From positions 248,001-312,000 of the forward strand of contig NZ_JASJEX010000001.1 in the NCBI RefSeq assembly GCF_030067705.1: DNA of 64,000 bases. Reading direction: 5' to 3'. Every line of letters begins with the position of its first letter. Position 1 is the first letter of the stretch. Positions 11,301 to 35,583 of the stretch are shown here, piece by piece. Origin of the DNA: Kribbibacterium absianum (GTDB lineage Bacteria > Actinomycetota > Coriobacteriia > Coriobacteriales > Atopobiaceae). The notes under the pieces were generated by a model. That model worked only from the letters and a program-made list of their open reading frames with translations. It was not told where the DNA came from and made no database searches. The position numbers and the translations under genes were made by a program.

Positions 11301-11377
<77 letters not shown>

Positions 11378-21397: not shown

Positions 21398-21877
21398 ATG
21401 GCGAGCAGGACCTTTCAAGGCCGGGTGGTGATCCCCGGCACCGTGAGCGCCGAGGCGCTCGTGTCCCGCGGCGGCTTCAACACGCTGGCCAGCTATCAGA
21501 CGGCGCTGCTCCTGGGCGACAAGCAGGTGAAGTGCGGCGACCAGAACAACCCGGATCTGTACAAGAAGCCGATGGCCGGCCGCGCCATCTGTCTGCCTGA
21601 GACCATCGGCTCCACCACGGGCGGCATGGCGTTCTACACGGTCTGCGCTCTCGAGAAGGGCCCGGCGTGCCTCTTGTTCTCGAAGACCATCGACTCGCTG
21701 GCCGCGGCCGGCGCGGTGCTCGCCGCCAACTGGACCGAGCACCCGATGCCCGTGGTGGACCAGTTGGGCGACGAGTTCCTCGGCTACGTGCAGGACGGCA
21801 TGACGGTGACCGTGGGCGAGGACGGCGCCGTCACGTTGAGCGACCCGGAACCGGACGCGACGGGAGGCAAGAAATGA
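21398..21877 (+). CDS. Aconitase X swivel-domain (small) subunit
   Basis: A 159-aa former DUF126 protein, the swivelling domain that closes over the active site of aconitase X. The motifs GRVVIPGTVSAEALVS at the N-terminus and GSTTGGMAFYTVC near residue 70, with the SSS/SCTTG-type loop, are typical. TAG of the large subunit is directly followed by this ATG, and the gene ends in an ATGA overlap with the flavoprotein gene. Three tightly coupled genes therefore make one enzyme system. Confidence 0.9.
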   Translation: MASRTFQGRVVIPGTVSAEALVSRGGFNTLASYQTALLLGDKQVKCGDQNNPDLYKKPMAGRAICLPETIGSTTGGMAFYTVCALEKGPACLLFSKTIDSLAAAGAVLAANWTEHPMPVVDQLGDEFLGYVQDGMTVTVGEDGAVTLSDPEPDATGGKK

Positions 21878-23931
21878 GGCGCGAGCTCGAACCGCTCTTC
21901 ACGCCCTGGAAGATCGGGAACGTGGAGGTCAAGAACCGCATCGTGATGACGTCCATGGGCGGCACGGACCTTTTGGGATGGATGGAGAACAACCACTTCG
22001 ACAAGGCCGGTGCCGAGTTCATCCTGCAGGTGGCCGAGAACAACGTGGGCCTCGTGCTGCCGGGCTGCCAGCCGGTGTACAACCCGATGTTCGGCCAGTG
22101 GCTGCACCAGAACAAGAGGATGTACCGGGACCTCGCCGCCTGGATGCCGGAGTTCCACAAGACCGGCGCCAAGCTTTTCGTGCAGCTCACGGCCGGGTTC
22201 GGGCGCTCGTTCTCGGTAAGCCCGATGATGGAGGCGCTCTACACCAACCCGGTGCTGCGGACGCTCTCCAAGCCCTTCATGGACCTCGACATGATCTGCG
22301 CGAGCGCCAGCGCGTCCCCCAACCGGTGGAGCGACAAGGTGCCGAGCCGTGCCCTCACGGCGCAGGAGATCCAGCGCTTCGTCTACTCGTTCGCCCAGAG
22401 CGCCAAATTGTTGCAGGAGGCGGGCGTCGACGGCGTCGAGGTGCACGCCGTGCACGAGGGCTACCTGCTCGACCAGTTCACGCTGCCGTATGTGAACCGC
22501 CGCCAGGACGAGTACGGCGGGTCGCTCGAGAACCGCTACCGCTTCGCCACCCAGATCGTCCAGGCCATCAAGAGGGAGTGCGGCGACGACTTCCCGGTGT
22601 CCCTGCGCTACTCCGTGGTGTCCAAGACCAAGGGCATGCGACAGGGCGCCCTGCCCGGCGAGGACTACGTCGAGGTGGGCCGCGACATGGCGGAGTCCGA
22701 GAAGGCCGCGAGGCTGCTGCAGGACGCCGGCTACGACATGCTCAACTGCGACAACGGTACCTACGACGCCTGGTACTGGGCACACCCGCCCATCTACATG
22801 CCCGAGAACTGCAACCTCGAGGACGTGGAGCACATCAAGGAGTTCGTGGACATCCCCGTGGTGGCGGCGGGACGCTTGGTGCCGGAGGTCGCTGCAGAGG
22901 CCATCGCCGAGGGCAAGCTGGACGGCGCGGGCTTCGCGCGGCAGTTCCTGGCGGACTCGGAGTGGGTCACCAAGCTCACGGAGGGGCGCGACGAGGATAT
23001 CCGCCCGTGCATCCTGTGCCACAACGGGTGCTTCAACCTGTGCCACTACGAGGGCGTGCCCAACGACCAGGACCTGAGCGACTCGCTGCACATGGCCCGT
23101 TGCGCCTTGAACGCGCAGACCATGCAGACGGACAAGCACCACATCAAGAGGGCCGACCGTCCCAAAAAGGTGGCCGTGGTGGGAGGCGGCGTCGGCGGCA
23201 TGGAGGCGGCGCTGGTCCTGAAGGAGCGCGGGCACGACCCGGTGATCTACGAGGCGAGCGGCGCGCTGGGCGGCACGCTGATCCAGGCGAGCGCGGAGTC
23301 TTACAAGGGCAAGCTGCGCGACCTGCTCGCTTGGTACCGGCACCAGGTGGAGAAGGCGCAGATCCCGGTGCACCTGAACGAGCGCGTGACGGACCTGGAC
23401 GCCCTGATGGCGGACGAAGTGATCGTGGCGACCGGCTCCACGCCGATCCTGCTGCCTGTGCCGGGCGCGGAGAAGATGGTGGAGGCGTGCGAGTTCCTCG
23501 ACGGCGCGCCGGTGGGGGAGCGCGTGGTCGTGGTGGGCGGCGGCCTGACCGGCTGCGAGATCGCCTACGAGCTGCACCTGCAGGGCAAGCGGCCCATCAT
23601 CGTGGAGATGAAGAACGACCTGGTGGCGCAGAAGGGCGTCTGCCTGGCCAACAGCTCTTATCTGCGGGAGTACTTCGCGCTGCACCAGGTGCCGGTGTAT
23701 CTCAACGCGACGCTCAAGGAGGTGTTCGACGGCGAGGTTGTGGTGGAGCAGGACGGGAGGTCGGTCGCGATTCCCTGTGACTCCGTGATCAGCTCCGTGG
23801 GGTACCGACCGGCGCCGCTCAAGGGCCCGAAACGCTCGAGGAAGCGGGTGCGCTACGTGGGCGACTGCGCCGGCGTGGGGAACCTGCGCACCGTGGTGTG
23901 GGGCGCCTGGGACGAGGCCATGAAGGTCTAG
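21874..23931 (+). CDS. Old-yellow-enzyme-type Fe-S flavoprotein, 2,4-dienoyl-CoA reductase/BaiCD-like
   Basis: A 685-aa three-domain ene-reductase. Residues 1-360 form the FMN TIM barrel, with the family motif EGYLLDQFTLPYVNRRQDEY followed by GGSLENR. Cysteines in RPCILCHNGC and a later ARC bind a 4Fe-4S cluster (about 375-410). The last 290 residues hold FAD and NAD(P)H folds (VAVVGGGVGGMEA and VVVVGGGLTGCE). Electrons would run from NAD(P)H through FAD and Fe-S to FMN and on to an activated C=C bond. Relatives reduce enoyl-CoAs, bile-acid intermediates and other enoates. In this operon it probably reduces the product of aconitase X. Bases 22723-22866 recur inverted in the phosphate transporter gene. 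Confidence 0.9.
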   Translation: MRRELEPLFTPWKIGNVEVKNRIVMTSMGGTDLLGWMENNHFDKAGAEFILQVAENNVGLVLPGCQPVYNPMFGQWLHQNKRMYRDLAAWMPEFHKTGAKLFVQLTAGFGRSFSVSPMMEALYTNPVLRTLSKPFMDLDMICASASASPNRWSDKVPSRALTAQEIQRFVYSFAQSAKLLQEAGVDGVEVHAVHEGYLLDQFTLPYVNRRQDEYGGSLENRYRFATQIVQAIKRECGDDFPVSLRYSVVSKTKGMRQGALPGEDYVEVGRDMAESEKAARLLQDAGYDMLNCDNGTYDAWYWAHPPIYMPENCNLEDVEHIKEFVDIPVVAAGRLVPEVAAEAIAEGKLDGAGFARQFLADSEWVTKLTEGRDEDIRPCILCHNGCFNLCHYEGVPNDQDLSDSLHMARCALNAQTMQTDKHHIKRADRPKKVAVVGGGVGGMEAALVLKERGHDPVIYEASGALGGTLIQASAESYKGKLRDLLAWYRHQVEKAQIPVHLNERVTDLDALMADEVIVATGSTPILLPVPGAEKMVEACEFLDGAPVGERVVVVGGGLTGCEIAYELHLQGKRPIIVEMKNDLVAQKGVCLANSSYLREYFALHQVPVYLNATLKEVFDGEVVVEQDGRSVAIPCDSVISSVGYRPAPLKGPKRSRKRVRYVGDCAGVGNLRTVVWGAWDEAMKV

Positions 23932-23933
23932 CT

Positions 23934-24251
23934 CGGACGCTTCGGAGAGAGCCATTTGTCCACGCCTGGACGCTTGGGAGAGAGCCGTTTGTCCACGCCT
24001 GGACGCTTGGGAGAGAGCCCTTTGTCCACGCTCTGATCAGCTGGAGCGTGGACAAATCGCTTTGACGGGTGGGCCCGGTGCCGGCGAAGGGCCGCCGCCC
24101 GTCAGTGCCCCGGCCCATGGGCGCCCGACGATGCCGCGCCGTGGACGCTTGGGAGAGAGCCGTTTGTCCACGCTCCGCCCGGCTGGAGCGTGGACAGATC
24201 GCTTTGACCGAAGCGTCCAACCATGGACAAACGGCTTTGACCGAAGCGTCC
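23934..24251. repeat. Family B repeat cluster II (about seven units)
   Basis: Forward units start at 23934, 23967, 24000 (33-base period) and 24142; reverse units lie at 24050-24066 (truncated), 24191-24219 and 24224-24251. Forward units carry the GAGAGAG centre and reverse ones the TCAAAG centre. The cluster begins three bases after the flavoprotein stop and fills most of the 432-base gap before the phosphate transporter gene. Confidence 0.85.
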
Positions 24252-24363
24252 GCCCTTCAGGTTTGGAATGTCGCCATGTTTCAGTGCTGATTCAAGTAGT
24301 TGCCGCTACCATTAAGAAATGCGCGCCGCTCGGCCGCCTCGCCCGGGAGAGGGAGCACCTGTC

Positions 24364-25609
24364 ATGGACATGGCAACACTCGTGGTGGTCGGTCTGGTCA
24401 TCGTCTTTGCCCTAGCGTTCGATTTCACCAACGGCTTCCAAGACACCGCGAACGCGATGGCCACCTCGATTGCCACCGGTGCGCTCAAGCCCAAGACGGC
24501 CGTGCTCATCGCCGGCGCCATGAACCTTGTGGGCGCGTTCCTCTCCACCGAGGTGGCCCAGACAGTCTCCGGCGGCCTCATCAACGAGCAAGAGGTCTTC
24601 ATCGGCCCGGAGTTCATCTTCGCGGGTCTTGTCGGCGCCATCATCTGGAACCTCATCACCTGGTACCTGGGGCTCCCGTCCTCTGGCTCCCATGCCCTGT
24701 TTGGCGGTCTCGTGGGGGCCGTCATCGTGGGCGCGGGCGTCGAGGGCGTCAACTTTGTCGCCGTCATCGACAAGATCCTGGTCCCGTCGCCACCACGGGG
24801 ATGTCCACGAACTCCTTGATGTGCTCCACGTCCTCGAGGTTGCAGTTCTCGGGCATGTAGATGGGCGGGTGTGCCCAGTACCAGGCGTCGTAGGTACCGT
24901 TGTCGCAGTTGAGCATGTCGTAGCCGGCGTCGAGGAGCACCAGATGGAGAACGGATTCCGGCACGGGCAGACGATCACCGCGTGCCTCGTCGCGCTGTCC
25001 CACGGCACCAACGACGCCCAGAAGACCATGGGCATCATCACCCTCACCCTCATCGCCACCGGCGCGCAGCCGAGCGGCACCGGCCCCGAGCTGTGGGTCG
25101 TCGCCATTTGCGGCCTCGCCATCGCCATGGGCACCTACATGGGCGGCTGGCGCGTGATCCACACGCTCGGCAAAGGCCTCACCGACCTCAACACGCCGCA
25201 GGGGTTTGCGGCCGAGGCCGCGAGCGCCACGGCAGTGCTCGCCAGCTCGCACCTGGGCTTCGCGCTCTCCACCACGCAGGTGTGCTCGGGTTCCGTGATC
25301 GGCACCGGCCTCGGGCGCGGCGTGCCCGTGAACTGGGGCGTCGCCAAGCGCATGCTCGTTGCATGGCTCGTGACGTTCCCGGCTGCTGCCGGCATGGGTG
25401 CCGTGGCGTGCTGCGCCGCAAAGACGGGTATGGCGGGGACCGTGGTGACGGCGGTGGCGTGCGCGCTGGTCTCGGGCTTTATCTTCTGGCTCTCGCGGAA
25501 GAACCCGATCGACGCCACCAACGTCACCGAGGACGACCCACAGGGCAAGCTGCAGCCCAAGCCTCAGTCCGCTGCGGTGCGCTCTGGCACCCCGACCCCA
25601 CAGATGTAG
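24364..25609 (+). pseudogene. PiT-family inorganic phosphate transporter, disrupted
   Basis: The N-terminal half (24364-24787) reads as a normal low-affinity phosphate permease: FDFTNGFQDTANAMATSIAT is the PiT signature, and SSGSHALFGGLVG follows. The C-terminal half (from about 24932, frame shifted by one) resumes with NGFRHGQ and the second signature ALSHGTNDAQKTMG. Between them 144 bases are an exact inverted copy of the flavoprotein gene. The N-terminal frame stops inside it at 24819, and about 35 residues with one membrane helix are missing. Either the gene is inactive or split, or the sequence was misassembled. An ATG at 24943 could start a separate C-terminal fragment. Confidence 0.85.
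24788..24931 (-). repeat. Inverted 144-bp duplicate of flavoprotein gene bases 22723-22866
   Basis: Base-by-base comparison gives 144 of 144 identical positions on the opposite strand, and one mismatch beyond it six more matching bases (GTCCCG). It encodes, in reverse, residues DAGYDMLNCDNGTYDAW and onward of the flavoprotein. The junction microhomology suggests template switching or a chimeric assembly. Confidence 0.95.
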
Positions 25610-25618
25610 GAGCAGGTC

Positions 25619-25828
25619 ATGGGAGAGGTGCTGAACCTGATTAATGTGCTCGCGGTGACGGTGGTCGTGGCGGGCGTCATAGGTGGGCTGTACTCATTCG
25701 GGCTCAAGCTGCACTTTCGCAGTGTGGAGGGCACCGCGACGGTCGCCACGCACGCGGGCGCGATCGCCTGTTGGGGCGCGTGCGTGGTCATTGCGCTCGT
25801 GGCGTTGGCGCTCATGGTGATGGGATAG
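25619..25828 (+). CDS. Small membrane protein
   Basis: A 69-aa protein with two hydrophobic helices (VLAVTVVVAGVIGGLYSFGL and CWGACVVIALVALALMVMG). The AGGAG site overlaps the end of the phosphate transporter gene, nine bases upstream, so it belongs to that operon and may be an accessory subunit. I know of no assigned function. Confidence 0.7.
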   Translation: MGEVLNLINVLAVTVVVAGVIGGLYSFGLKLHFRSVEGTATVATHAGAIACWGACVVIALVALALMVMG

Positions 25829-25887
25829 CACGCTGGGCGTGGGGGTCCTGCGCGGTTTGGTTTGCGACCTCGGCGGTTGGGCGATAA

Positions 25888-25931
25888 ACCTCCTCAGTAC
25901 TTGCGGCCGCAGGGGCCACTACTGAGGAGGT
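25888..25931 (+). promoter_or_regulatory. Stem-loop that hides a Shine-Dalgarno sequence
   Basis: A perfect 12-bp inverted repeat, ACCTCCTCAGTA and TACTGAGGAGGT, with a 20-base GC-rich loop. The 3' arm contains the whole GAGGAGG ribosome-binding site of the next gene, six bases before its ATG. In RNA this would block translation until melted or unfolded by a ligand, protein or upstream translation. Confidence 0.75.
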
Positions 25932-25936
25932 CAATC

Positions 25937-26131
25937 ATGTTGAAGGTTCTGGGCAAGCTGGTCGGCGCCGCCGTGACCGTGGCGGCGGGCGTGTTCGCGC
26001 TGGAGAAGCTGGGCGTCGTGAAGTACAACCCCAACTGGGTCGAGGAGTGCCCGTGCCCCGTGGTGAAGGACCTGGCGTCGCAGTGCCCCGTCTGCTCGGG
26101 TTCTGCCGAGAAGACCACCGCCGAGGCCTAG
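25937..26131 (+). CDS. Small exported or membrane-associated Cys-rich protein
   Basis: A 64-aa protein beginning with a hydrophobic helix (VLGKLVGAAVTVAAGVFALE), followed by a short soluble tail with four Cys in two CPCP/CPVC-like pairs (EECPCPVV and SQCPVCSG), which could bind a metal. The ATG at 25937 is fixed by the strong AGGAGG. That site sits in the stem described above, so expression is probably controlled at translation. Family unknown. Confidence 0.65.
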   Translation: MLKVLGKLVGAAVTVAAGVFALEKLGVVKYNPNWVEECPCPVVKDLASQCPVCSGSAEKTTAEA

Positions 26132-26139
26132 CCCATCGC

Positions 26140-26217
26140 GTGCAAAAAGGGACAGTCCCCGTTTGCACATCAAACGGCCAATGAGTCAGCACCCGCCGGA
26201 CGGTGACTCATCGGCCG
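26140..26217 (+). repeat. Composite family A element, copy A3
   Basis: A 29-base GGGACAGTCCC hairpin (26140-26168), then a second hairpin CGGCCAATGAGTCA...TGACTCATCGGCCG. The whole 78-base element is 75/78 identical to 28265-28342. It lies eight bases after the small Cys-rich gene. Confidence 0.9.
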
Positions 26218-26330
26218 TACTTTGTACGCGCCGACCGAGACACGGGCGCTTTTCGGGCCTTTTCCATAAAAGCCTTGCTTTAGAGTGCTTCTAGCAACCC
26301 AGTTAGAACCTGAATGAGCAAGGAGGGAAT

Positions 26331-27236
26331 GTGGCCGCCGATGCCCTGAATCTGACGCGCCTTTGCCAGCCGGTGCGGTCGTGCGACGCCCTCGAGCGTG
26401 CGATTGTGCCGGCCAAGCCGCGCCTGTACGTGCGGGAGCCGTTCGAGGAGGTGCCAAAGAGCCTCGACCAGCTTCACCGGGAGTTCTCTGCTATCACCGA
26501 GCGCGAGGTCAAGACCTGGATGCTCTGGGCGCGGAGGCCCGCTCGCGAGGCCTACTACGAGGCGAACTTCCCGGACTACGTTGCAGAGCACCAGGCGGAC
26601 TTCGAGCGGCGGCACCGCAGCCATGAAGAAGCCCAGGATGCACGTCAGCGCGAGCACGACACGCCACTGCTGGCGCGGTACAAAGCCGAGTGTCAGGTGG
26701 CCGAGAAGCGCACCCTCGGCGATCCGGGTCTCATCGAAGGCCTGATTGAGGGGTACGTCGCCAGTCTCGCACTTCCGTTCGAACTGGGCTGTGAGAGTTC
26801 TTTCGACCTCACGGAAGGCGAGCTCTACCTGTGCCTCACGTTTCCTGGTCACGAAATCGTGCCGCCCACGTACGAGGTCAGCAAGCGCACCGGTGTTGGG
26901 GTTCGCGAGAAGTCGACCCGTCGGGTTCGCAGCGAGTACGTGCAGACCATGCTCGGGGCCATGCTTGCGGTGGTGACAAACGCGTTCGAAGCATCGCCTG
27001 CCATCAAAGCGGTGGCGGTTGACATCCGTGCGTGGACGAGGAGCCATAAGACGGGGGAGGGCATCGACTACGCGCTGGCACAGCGGTTCACGCGCGAGGC
27101 CCTGCTGGGACAACAGCTTGCGGGGATCGACCCCGACGACTGGTGCGCGGGTCACGGGCTTGTCTCGAATATGACGGTCACCAAGATCCTGCGCCCCATC
27201 CAGCCTCTCAAGAAGGAGGTCGACGGTGACGAGTAG
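26331..27236 (+). CDS. Hypothetical protein, first gene of a repeat-bracketed pair
   Basis: A 301-aa soluble protein with no family that I can name. GTG start with AAGGAGGG. The middle is strongly charged and helical (RRHRSHEEAQDARQREHD, about residues 91-108); the C-terminal half has a long helix-strand pattern (AIKAVAVDIRAWTRSH). No membrane helix or signal peptide. Its last eleven bases overlap the next gene, which is membrane-anchored, so the two probably act together. The pair is bracketed by nearly identical 78-base repeats. Confidence 0.7.
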   Translation: MAADALNLTRLCQPVRSCDALERAIVPAKPRLYVREPFEEVPKSLDQLHREFSAITEREVKTWMLWARRPAREAYYEANFPDYVAEHQADFERRHRSHEEAQDARQREHDTPLLARYKAECQVAEKRTLGDPGLIEGLIEGYVASLALPFELGCESSFDLTEGELYLCLTFPGHEIVPPTYEVSKRTGVGVREKSTRRVRSEYVQTMLGAMLAVVTNAFEASPAIKAVAVDIRAWTRSHKTGEGIDYALAQRFTREALLGQQLAGIDPDDWCAGHGLVSNMTVTKILRPIQPLKKEVDGDE

Positions 27237-28263
27237 GGACGTCGGGCGCGCCCTCGGGACGCTCAGGAATGCCTCGCGCGGCTGTCTGTACCCGCAGGTC
27301 GAGGAGGACCCGTGGAAGTACATGCCCACGGCCTACACGTTGCCGTGGGCGATGTCGCTCATGGCCATTGCGCTGCTCGTCTGCGGCTCTGCGTCCCTGG
27401 TGCTAGAGCTTGCAGCGTGCGCCATGGCCGTGGGGGCGTTGGTGGTGCGGAGGCGGAGCGGCGTGCCGAGAAAGAACCAGAGGCACCCGCGTTTCACAAC
27501 GGGCGCTTGTTTCTCGGTCGCGTTCCTGTCGCTCGTCATGGCGATGGGGATTGCCGGCGGTTTGGAGTCCGTTGCCGTCACCGTGGACTGTGATGAGCTG
27601 GTCGGTCGAAGCGTGACGGTTCACATGGACGGGGTCACGCGCGATGGCAAGCTGGTTGACGAGGACATCGAGGTCGCGGTCGGCGAGCCTAGCGAGACGC
27701 GGCCGGCGAGCGGAACGTACACGTTCAGAGTTGATTCGTCGGAGTTCGACACCGAAGAGGTCTGTTATGTTGCGGAGTCTCCATCGGTGACGGTGGACTT
27801 CGACCGGCATATCGGTGCGTCGGTATCGTTGCGGATAGAACGTGACGAAGGCAAGATCCGGCGCGTCGCCGAGGAGAGGGCTGCCGAAGCGGCCGAGGCC
27901 AAGGCGAAAGCTGAGGCAGAGGCGAAGGCCAAGGCTCAGAGGGAAGCGGAGGCCAAGGCTCGGGCAGAGGCCGAGGCGAAGGAGAAGGCAGAGGCCGAGG
28001 CGAAGGCGCGGGCCGAAGAGGAGGCTCGACGGCAGGCAGAGGCCCAGACGGCCGAACAGGCGGAGGCGGAGGCCAGGGCGAAGGCAGAGGCGGCTGCGGC
28101 GGCGGCAACGGCTGAGAAGAACGAGGAGACCGTCTACATCACCAAGACTGGGGAGTGCTATCACCGGGGCACCTGTTCCTCGCTGAGGCAGTCCAAGATC
28201 GCCATCTCGAAGGACGATGCCATCGCCCAAGGCTACCAAGCCTGTCAAAAATGCAATCCCTGA
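27226..28263 (+). CDS. Membrane protein with Ala/Glu/Lys coiled coil and C-terminal Cys/His domain
   Basis: A 345-aa protein. Two N-terminal hydrophobic helices (about 40-65 and 85-105) are followed by a beta-rich segment (about 110-200), then 90 residues of nearly uninterrupted AEAKAKAEAEAKAK-type helix (about 215-305) like the TolA stalk. The last 40 residues, VYITKTGECYHRGTCSSL to ACQKCNP, form a small Cys/His module resembling the Ada-type metal-binding tail found after nucleases and competence proteins in Firmicutes. GTG start with AAGGAGG. The repeat begins one base after its stop. Confidence 0.75.
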   Translation: MTSRDVGRALGTLRNASRGCLYPQVEEDPWKYMPTAYTLPWAMSLMAIALLVCGSASLVLELAACAMAVGALVVRRRSGVPRKNQRHPRFTTGACFSVAFLSLVMAMGIAGGLESVAVTVDCDELVGRSVTVHMDGVTRDGKLVDEDIEVAVGEPSETRPASGTYTFRVDSSEFDTEEVCYVAESPSVTVDFDRHIGASVSLRIERDEGKIRRVAEERAAEAAEAKAKAEAEAKAKAQREAEAKARAEAEAKEKAEAEAKARAEEEARRQAEAQTAEQAEAEARAKAEAAAAAATAEKNEETVYITKTGECYHRGTCSSLRQSKIAISKDDAIAQGYQACQKCNP

Positions 28264-28264
28264 T

Positions 28265-28342
28265 GTGCAAAAAGGGACAGTCCCCGTTTGCACATCAAAC
28301 GGCCAATGAGTCAGCACCCGCCGGGCAGTGACTCATTGGCCG
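28265..28342 (+). repeat. Composite family A element, copy A4
   Basis: 78 bases, the same orientation as A3 and differing at three positions. It combines the 29-base hairpin with a CGGCCAATGAGTCA hairpin. It separates the two-gene module from the convergent DUF1648 gene and can serve as a terminator for both. Confidence 0.9.
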
Positions 28343-28356
28343 TTCTCTGTGCGGTG

Positions 28357-29478
28357 TCAGCCCATGGCGAAACAGAGCCAGCAGAGGACGACGCACAACA
28401 GAACCATCCCCCCGAGGAACCCCCATGCGAGCGGGCGCCCCCAGTTGCAGGTCCAGCCCACGCCGAAGCGTTCGGGCACGAACACGGCCGGGTCGTCGCG
28501 GTTGACGTAGAAGACGCCGAGCTTCCAATGCTCGTCGTTGTCCGCCGGCATGGCGTCCGTTCCCTCCAGGCGCCTGAAGACGCGCGAGCCGTTCTGTCCG
28601 TACACGACGGCGAGCACGACGCCGCCGGCACAGGCGAGAATCGTAAGCAGCGTGACGATGATCGCGGCGCTGGCCATCGTGATGGCGCCGAAGCTGGACA
28701 ACGCCATGAGAACGCCGCACGCGCCCGTGATCACCAGGCCCATGACCAGCAGGAACACGCCCTGAGCGTGGGCGAAGAGGCCGTAGGCGTAGGCGGACGT
28801 CTGCGGGCGGTCGGGGTCCACCGCCTTGCGCGACCGCCGGATGGTCCAGAGGGAGAACGCGAAGATGACGCCGAGGAACACCTCCATGATCACGGGGAAG
28901 CCGGCCGAGAGGGGCGTTTTGGGCACGTAGTTGGTGACCGTGCCGTCGAAGCCGACGTGCATCGGGATCTGGCCGGGGATCTTGTCGTAGTTGAAGACGA
29001 CAAGTCCGACCGTCACCAGAACGAGCGGCACGTAGAGCAGGTTCCACCACATCGAGACAGGCCTGGGGACCTCGGGCTCATCGATGACGGCCGTGGATTG
29101 CTGGACCGCCGCGTGCCAGCCTTGGCTCGCCTTGAGGGCCTGCACCTTGCGGCGGTAATGCAGCATCAGGCCGAAGCAGCCAACAAGCGGCAGGGCAGCC
29201 GCGAGGCAGTAGAGCCAGAGGAAGGCAACGGCGTTCTCGTCGGCGTCCGCCAGAAAGGTGCAGCTCCCGAGTGCGATGAGAGAGCCGACCACCGTGAGGA
29301 CGACCGCCCCGAGGCAATAGCTGCGACGCCACTGGCGAATGGCCGGGTTCTCGCGCGCGCTGCTCGGAACCGTGACGGCAAAGGCCTCGGTGGCGGGCAT
29401 GAGCCACGGCGTCGAGGCCATGAGGGCGCCGCAGAGGGCGACGGCACCCACGAGAAGGACAACAATCAGCATTTTCAT
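28357..29478 (-). CDS. DUF1648/DUF5808 family membrane protein (SdpI-like)
   Basis: A 373-aa protein with about eight hydrophobic segments. YDKIPGQIPMHVGFDGTV (residues about 164-181) is the DUF1648 signature known from the SdpI immunity family and relatives; DEHWKLGVFYVNRDDPAVFV near the C-terminus is the DUF5808 motif. Such proteins are usually paired with a GntR- or ArsR-type regulator, as here. The role is probably envelope-stress or toxin immunity, by analogy only. Confidence 0.82.
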   Translation of the reverse strand: MKMLIVVLLVGAVALCGALMASTPWLMPATEAFAVTVPSSARENPAIRQWRRSYCLGAVVLTVVGSLIALGSCTFLADADENAVAFLWLYCLAAALPLVGCFGLMLHYRRKVQALKASQGWHAAVQQSTAVIDEPEVPRPVSMWWNLLYVPLVLVTVGLVVFNYDKIPGQIPMHVGFDGTVTNYVPKTPLSAGFPVIMEVFLGVIFAFSLWTIRRSRKAVDPDRPQTSAYAYGLFAHAQGVFLLVMGLVITGACGVLMALSSFGAITMASAAIIVTLLTILACAGGVVLAVVYGQNGSRVFRRLEGTDAMPADNDEHWKLGVFYVNRDDPAVFVPERFGVGWTCNWGRPLAWGFLGGMVLLCVVLCWLCFAMG

Positions 29479-30844: not shown

Positions 30845-30944
30845 GTCAAAGCCGTTTGTCCACGCTGCAGCTGACCAGAGCGTGGACAAACGGCTCTCTC
30901 CGAAGCGTCCAACCGTGGACAAAGAGCTTTGACCGAAGCGTCCA
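30834..30944. repeat. Family B repeat cluster III (three units)
   Basis: Units at 30834-30862 (forward), 30883-30911 and 30916-30944 (reverse). The first overlaps the end of hypB. The forward unit and first reverse unit form a long hairpin through GTTTGTCCACGCT/AGCGTGGACAAAC. Both centres (TCAAAG and GAGAGAG) occur here side by side. Confidence 0.85.
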
Positions 30945-33977: not shown

Positions 33978-34322
33978 TTGCACGAGCTGGGCGTTGTCTT
34001 CTACATCATCGACGCGGTCACCGAGACCGCCGAGGCGAACGGCGTCGGCCACGTCGACAGGGTGTCGCTCGAGGTGGGGGAGGCCACGGGCATCGTGCCC
34101 GACCTGTTCCAGGAGGCCTGGCGCTGGGCCGCGGACCGCACGGACCTGCTCCGCGGGGCGGCCCTCTCGAGCGTGTCCGTGCCGGCCATGAACCGGTGTC
34201 GCGCGTGCGGGCTCGAGTACCCGGCGTTTCCTGCCGGCCCCACCTGTCCCTCCTGCGGGAGCGGGGACACAGTGCTGGCCGCCGGTGACGACGTCACCAT
34301 CGTCTCGATCGAGGTCACGTAA
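33978..34322 (+). CDS. hypA: Hydrogenase nickel chaperone HypA
   Basis: A 114-aa protein, the nickel-delivering partner of HypB. It starts MHEL from a TTG; His2 is the known nickel ligand, which with the GGAGG nearby fixes the start. The structural zinc site is two pairs, CRAC (about residue 72) and CPSC (about 89). The middle VSLEVGEATGIVPDLFQEAW matches the family. It follows the large flavoprotein gene by 26 bases and ends at a family A hairpin. Confidence 0.93.
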   Translation: MHELGVVFYIIDAVTETAEANGVGHVDRVSLEVGEATGIVPDLFQEAWRWAADRTDLLRGAALSSVSVPAMNRCRACGLEYPAFPAGPTCPSCGSGDTVLAAGDDVTIVSIEVT

Positions 34323-34370
34323 AAAGCTGATGTGCAAACGGGGACTGTCCCTGTTTGCACATCAGCTTTT
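34322..34370. terminator. Family A hairpin A6 used as a bidirectional terminator
   Basis: A 29-base unit (34332-34360, core GGGACTGTCCC) extended by AAAAGCTGAT and ATCAGCTTTT arms into a 49-base perfect-type hairpin, with A and T runs on its two sides. It lies between convergent hypA and the next gene, and overlaps the latter's stop codon. Confidence 0.85.
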
Positions 34371-34922: not shown

Positions 34923-35082
34923 GACGCTCCTCACGCGCTACAAACAGATTGAAATCAGACGTGCCGGAGCGACTATATCAGGCGAGGTTCAGTGCGACCC
35001 GTTTGCCTTGAGATGGATCAACGCTCTCCTTCCCGCTTGCCCTAACCTGAAATCAACGCACTCTGCAGCGGGAAGGAGACCC

Positions 35083-35583
35083 ATGAAGATCGACGTGCCC
35101 TTGGACGAGAACGGCTTCCTGCCGGACCTCTACGGCAAGTACGCACCGGCGGACGCCACCATTGACGGTGACCCCTGCGTGAGCTTCCCCATAACCGTCG
35201 CCGACGTCCCGGAGGGGGCGCAGGCGCTCGCACTCACCCTCGTGGACTGGGACTCGGTCCCGGTCTGCGGCTTTCCGTGGATCCATTGGTGCGCCACGGA
35301 CATTCCTGTGGTGGGGCTCGTGCCAGAGAACGCGAGCCAGTCCGGTGCGCTCCCGATGACGCAGGGCAGCAACAGCCATGCCGCCACGAGCGACGACCCG
35401 GCCCTGACCCAGCGCTACACCGGCCCTTGTCCGCCGGACAAGACCCACGACTACACCCTGCGGGTCTTTGCGCTGGACGCGGCGCTCGGTCTCGAGGAGG
35501 GCTACTACCTGAACGAGTTCCGCCACGCGGTGAAAGGCCACGTGCTCGGCTCCGCGCGCCTGGAGTTGCCGAGCCGAGCGTGA
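35083..35583 (+). CDS. YbhB/YbcL family PEBP-like protein
   Basis: A 166-aa Raf-kinase-inhibitor-like (phosphatidylethanolamine-binding fold) protein. Recognisable elements are VDWDSVPVCGFPWIHWCATD (residues about 53-72), the ligand-pocket strand, then RYTGPCPPDKTHDYTLRVFA (about 108-127), the family signature GPxPP...H.Y. Bacterial members are cytosolic with unknown ligands. ATG with GGAAGGAGA upstream. Not obviously linked to its neighbours. Confidence 0.85.
   Translation: MKIDVPLDENGFLPDLYGKYAPADATIDGDPCVSFPITVADVPEGAQALALTLVDWDSVPVCGFPWIHWCATDIPVVGLVPENASQSGALPMTQGSNSHAATSDDPALTQRYTGPCPPDKTHDYTLRVFALDAALGLEEGYYLNEFRHAVKGHVLGSARLELPSRA

Follow-up and report, generated by a model that had tools for sequence, protein, structure and literature searches.

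A small orphan gene of Kribbibacterium absianum begins directly behind a perfect inverted repeat that contains its Shine-Dalgarno (SD) sequence, which raises the question of whether the resulting RNA hairpin controls translation of the gene. Coordinates below refer to the window, meaning the whole stretch of 64,000 nucleotides that was analyzed. The features that define the locus are these:

25888-25899, + strand: 5' arm of a perfect 12-bp stem (anti-SD), sequence ACCTCCTCAGTA
25920-25931, + strand: 3' arm of the same stem, bearing the SD, sequence TACTGAGGAGGT
25924-25930, + strand: Shine-Dalgarno GAGGAGG inside the 3' arm, with a predicted openness of 0.0002, the minimum among 356 gene starts
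25883-25936, + strand: imperfect inverted repeat around the 12-bp stem, 22-nt arms, 82% complementary, MFE -30.1 kcal/mol
25937-26131, + strand: orphan 64-aa protein with one predicted N-terminal helix (residues 3-25, from a low-confidence model) and CxC and CxxC motifs

The preliminary description held that all of GAGGAGG is paired in a perfect 12-bp stem six bases before an ATG, and the sequence agrees: the 12/12 pairs are perfect, a 20-nt loop separates the arms, and six bases lie between GAGGAGG and the ATG at 25937. The extended arms, which include mismatches, run from 25883 to 25904 and from 25915 to 25936, so that the repeat abuts the ATG. In folds of six transcript lengths containing both arms, the modeled probability of the designed pairs was 0.95-0.99 and that of an open SD 0.0001-0.0009; every one of these folds buried the SD, as had been described. 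Thus, RNA that contains both arms very probably has a buried SD, and on this model the 64-aa gene would have an SD-sequestering leader hairpin, with its SD in a stable stem formed with an upstream anti-SD. Taken over its full 163 nt, the fold is less distinctive, with a z score of only -1.6 against shuffled sequences.

The gene behind the hairpin is real by its codon usage. The open reading frame (ORF) scores +0.59 per codon with a GC3 of 0.95, and its total of +38 compares with -73 to +10 for the five other reading frames of the same stretch. Extending the ORF in frame back through the hairpin to a TTG at 25862 adds a segment that scores -17, which makes ATG 25937 the likely start. The membrane helix and two Cys pairs that had been attributed to the product were found again, as a single hydrophobic segment close to the N terminus (mean hydropathy over 19 residues up to 2.0) and as cysteines 38, 40, 50, and 53, which form the CxC and CxxC motifs. 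Structure prediction returned a single helix at residues 3-25 with a mean pLDDT of 55, a model too weak to warrant a fold search.

Searches for relatives of the 64-aa protein returned its own genome alone, both among the 395 genomes of the order (0/394 others, E 0.001) and among 100 relative genomes (1/100, E 0.001). Relaxing the threshold to E values up to 10 across 140 genomes of the family gave weak matches only, and none of nine such translations that we inspected resembles a relative. Nothing was found in genome contigs, viral contigs, plasmids, or phages, and no family in Pfam, NCBIfam, or PHROGs matched. By eye, we recognized no small Cys-pair protein 3' of the phosphate permease at 29 other loci (L014-L042), a weak search because it was judged by eye and on the + strand only, so that loci with minus-strand matches may show the wrong side. 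Since no orthologue of the gene was found, the stem has no support from conservation or covariation. As for the hairpin, a pattern with 9-base arms occurred only in its own genome among the 140 of the family, and the core pattern with 11-base arms occurred in four other genome-contig stretches (two Paenibacillus, Marinobacterium, and Methylophilus), where an ATG at SD spacing followed in 0/4. Downstream, two genes in 26331-28263 have as their best PHROG matches phrog_38135 and phrog_14556, both families of unknown function, and distant relatives of the 301-aa protein encoded there occur in 10 other members of the 140-genome set.

How unusual such a stem is depends on what is counted. We used a 464-kb sample (the window plus 20 stretches, with 356 gene starts) and an 864-kb sample (40% of the genome, 653 starts), with gene starts taken from a simple custom codon and SD predictor rather than from annotation. 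Perfect stems of at least 12 bp with loops of 3-40 nt numbered 60 in 464 kb, versus 0 in one dinucleotide shuffle. By eye, many of those in the genome run into T-rich tails, as terminators do, or are recurring copies of repeat elements. Because perfect stems of this length are so abundant, a 12-bp stem alone is not rare. Its position is. The SD of the 64-aa gene ranks first among the 356 starts for lack of openness (0.0002, against a median of 0.36), and stems of at least 7 bp covering an SD are rarer at true SDs (8/356 starts) than at shifted control positions (105/1395). Perfect stems of at least 12 bp in which an upstream partner closes the SD occurred at 2/653 starts in 864 kb, where 78,246 cross-pairings between SD arms and the upstream regions of other genes would lead one to expect ~0.05. 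At a threshold of 8 bp, 6 such stems were observed versus 4.8 expected, which is no clear excess. A third stem, of 14 bp at locus L086, was set aside from this count: it is part of a repeat element and overlies the TTG taken as the start, which makes that start doubtful.

Other structured elements were seen in these samples. REP-like intergenic hairpins at 26140-26218, 28298-28344, and 34322-34370 are built of GTGCAAAC/GGGGACTGTCCC and GGCCAATGAGTCA units and recur genome-wide. At L055:18303-18386, perfect repeats made of GCACC/GGTGC and CCTCCT units are nested, with GGGAGGAGCCATGG at their end, in a complex structured leader.

The reading that we favor, tentatively and with a probability of about 0.42, is that of a lineage-specific leader hairpin that blocks translation and so mutes transcripts carrying both arms. 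Two further features bear on it:

25619-25828, + strand: orphan hydrophobic protein of 69 aa, a possible source of read-through
25883-25888, + strand: weak -10-like GATAAA (4/6), 15 nt after TTGCGA (4/6), which would put the transcript start inside the 5' arm

The predicted genes just upstream lie on the same strand (24364-24819 and 24944-25609, both parts of a permease, followed by 25619-25828), and the 69-aa protein, like the 64-aa one, matched only its own genome (1/140 in the family). Read-through RNA from the phosphate-permease and 69-aa genes would carry both arms and lock the SD of the 64-aa gene, so that very little protein would be made from such transcripts. We infer that the hairpin forms in the cell and lowers output in this way, and that translation would come instead from transcripts starting inside or beyond the 5' arm. 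It is also possible that some output arises from brief opening as RNA polymerase or a ribosome passes, rather than from heating. In the folding model, SD openness was 0.25-0.31, near the genome median, when the 5' end lay at 25894, 25898, or 25905, and 0.36-0.51 for starts at 25893 or 25896 combined with a shorter 3' end. Starts at 25890 and 25892 left the SD mostly closed (0.08 and 0.01). The closed SD in folds with both arms, the poor response to heat in the model, and the rise to 0.25-0.31 for starts at 25894 or later lead us to prefer a lock on both-arm transcripts. A scan of 24000-28500 passed no promoter-like site, and GATAAA was not among the sites of that scan. In favor of the lock are the first rank among 356 starts in SD closure, the 2 stems observed against 0.05, a coding-like gene, and same-strand genes upstream; against it are the missing orthologue, the missing promoter in the scan, the weak (4/6) match of GATAAA, an SD that is mostly closed for starts at 25890 or 25892, the fold z score of -1.6, and the unshared nature of a comparable stem described below. 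Regulation by the hairpin is thus plausible but unproven.

A serious rival, less probable than the lock, is that the palindrome is neutral or nearly so, with a 5' arm that originated when the SD region was copied as its reverse complement, for example by template switching during replication. On this reading the orphan gene behind the arm would be little used, and the arm would have no selected regulatory role. The second of the two long SD-closing stems among the 653 starts bears on this directly:

35025-35079, + strand: perfect 13-bp stem burying an SD, arms 35025-35037 and 35067-35079, 29-nt loop
35083-35583, + strand: YbhB/YbcL (PEBP-like) family protein behind this stem, 166 aa, TIGR00481, E 9.5e-34

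In contrast to the 64-aa gene, this one has relatives in 21 other genomes among the 140 of the family, and it offers the nearest substitute for a conservation test. The 13-bp stem was kept in 0/20 orthologue loci examined (L084 was left out as a weak match; at L083, where the match begins at residue 7, the true start is farther upstream than the position taken, within the stretch shown). The stem at 35083 is thus specific to this lineage, and SD hairpins need not be selectively kept; as judged from these sequences, the result goes against long-term selection on such stems.

Neutral origin is also consistent with the richness of the genome in perfect hairpins (60 of at least 12 bp in 464 kb), although this abundance is itself no sign of template switching, as many of them look like terminators or repeat elements. 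More weight comes from an exact inverted copy of 144 nt of one gene inside another, ~1 kb upstream of the hairpin, taken together with the finding that template switching can produce perfect stems in one event, as given in the available text of PMC8794818. Against the neutral reading, the ORF retains a strong coding signal and a strong SD.

The inverted copy itself comprises 144 nt of a flavin oxidoreductase-like gene (22723-22866 of 21874-23931, function judged by eye) repeated at 24788-24931 within the gene of the phosphate permease (PHO4). The permease is split between two reading frames, and the part of the PHO4 profile that falls between them, positions 121-182, is absent; the copy looks like a recent gene-breaking rearrangement or an assembly fault. 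In the same neighborhood, 33-nt repeats (GGACGCTTGGGAGAGAGCC.TTTGTCCACGC) at 23935-24252 and 30850-30895 occur as direct and inverted copies between oxidoreductase and permease genes, with related units elsewhere in the genome.

In a more far-reaching version, template switching during replication might create new perfect SD hairpins in this lineage, so that one mutation would suffice to give a gene a translational lock, with the 64-aa and PEBP genes, 9 kb apart, as two recent cases next to the 144-nt inverted copy that seems to interrupt the permease. We regard this as speculative and improbable.

Control of the hairpin by a metabolite, a metal, or a protein, perhaps the Cys-rich product itself, that stabilizes or opens it is unlikely. 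The buried SD would suit such a riboregulator, and the four cysteines might bind metal. Yet the Rfam covariance models gave one match in the 64-kb window, a tRNA at 11301, and none at the hairpin; a loop of 20 nt is small for a folded aptamer; no second copy of the half-site was found across 864 kb; and the gene has no orthologues. Neither Rfam in the window nor the search for half-site copies in 864 kb revealed a ligand- or protein-binding element near the hairpin, and a ligand or protein as trigger is neither supported nor excluded by these results.

Somewhat less likely still is translational coupling through a leader peptide, for which there is one candidate upstream ORF (uORF):

25839-25925, + strand: candidate uORF, start GTG 25839 or TTG 25857, stop TGA 25923-25925, spanning the 5' arm and loop

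Ribosomes on this uORF of 22 to 28 codons would open the stem, and the stop at the SD would hand them to ATG 25937. The uORF does extend across all of the 5' arm and the loop, with its stop at 25925, but a layout of this kind is present at 260/649 gene starts, its codon score is neutral (-0.4), and no strong SD precedes it. Because the layout is so common, the uORF was not counted as evidence for coupling.

We think it very unlikely that the inverted repeat acts as DNA, in the manner of an operator, or as a terminator or transcript 3' end. Its symmetry is perfect, with arm centers 32 bp apart, and a short T-rich tail, TTATC, comes after the stem on the minus strand. The + strand lacks a T tract, however, and continues after the 3' arm with CAATCATG; the stem at 25888-25931 is not followed by the T run of an intrinsic terminator on this strand, and a scan restricted to loops of 3-8 nt made no terminator-like call there. 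No minus-strand gene ends at the stem, as the + strand carries the genes predicted next in the downstream direction, as far as 28263. The half-site, allowing up to one mismatch, had no other copy in 864 kb, where shuffled half-sites gave 0 to 19. A DNA regulon was rejected on this single-copy status.

An RNA thermometer, for which the paired SD is the sole point in favor, is extremely unlikely: the stem is perfect, and in the melting model SD openness was 0.0002 at 37°C, 0.0003 at 42°C, and ~0.016 at 85°C, so that the SD would be ~98% paired even at 85°C and shut throughout the physiological range, making heat a poor trigger. The preliminary statement that the structure would act as a switch overreaches the evidence; its thermometer variant is contradicted by the model, and the SD burial on which it drew holds.

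As an element, the hairpin belongs to a class already described, that of SD sequestration. IS10 and IS50 are protected from read-through transcripts in that such RNA folds to hide an SD, whereas the transcript that the element itself makes is without the 5' arm. The lock proposed here would resemble this arrangement, although the promoter within the arm is a weak candidate. The cat genes carry a perfect inverted repeat.

Erm attenuators have an inhibitory stem-loop that hides the SD of the downstream gene, according to the available text of PMC5118997, and on that account erm/cat-type attenuation shares with the 64-aa gene a stem-loop over a downstream SD; here, there is neither a supported leader peptide nor a resistance gene. 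A leader hairpin that hides an SD is likewise known for IS200 tnpA (partial text of PMC12594629), but tnpA encodes the transposase of a widespread element, whereas the small protein encoded here is an orphan and shows no sign of a role in transposition. In Salmonella mgtQ-mgtB, as far as the accessible portion of PMC8092293 describes it, the second of two operon genes has its SD hidden by an intergenic hairpin, with which a small ORF overlaps, an arrangement that resembles the predicted SD-hiding hairpin and overlapping candidate uORF seen here. From that same portion, mgtQ has its own AGGAGG and lies among alternative stems, whereas the present locus has one dominant predicted stem and a uORF of common layout with no strong SD. 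On paper the hairpin would act as these leaders do, but beyond SD burial it shares no tested family feature with IS200, erm, or mgtQ-mgtB.

If the lock fails, the locus would caution against taking a perfect SD stem from a single genome as proof of a switch. If it works, it would be a clean case of a young, lineage-specific membrane-protein gene held quiet at translation, and with another such stem in this window one could ask how SD hairpins arise.
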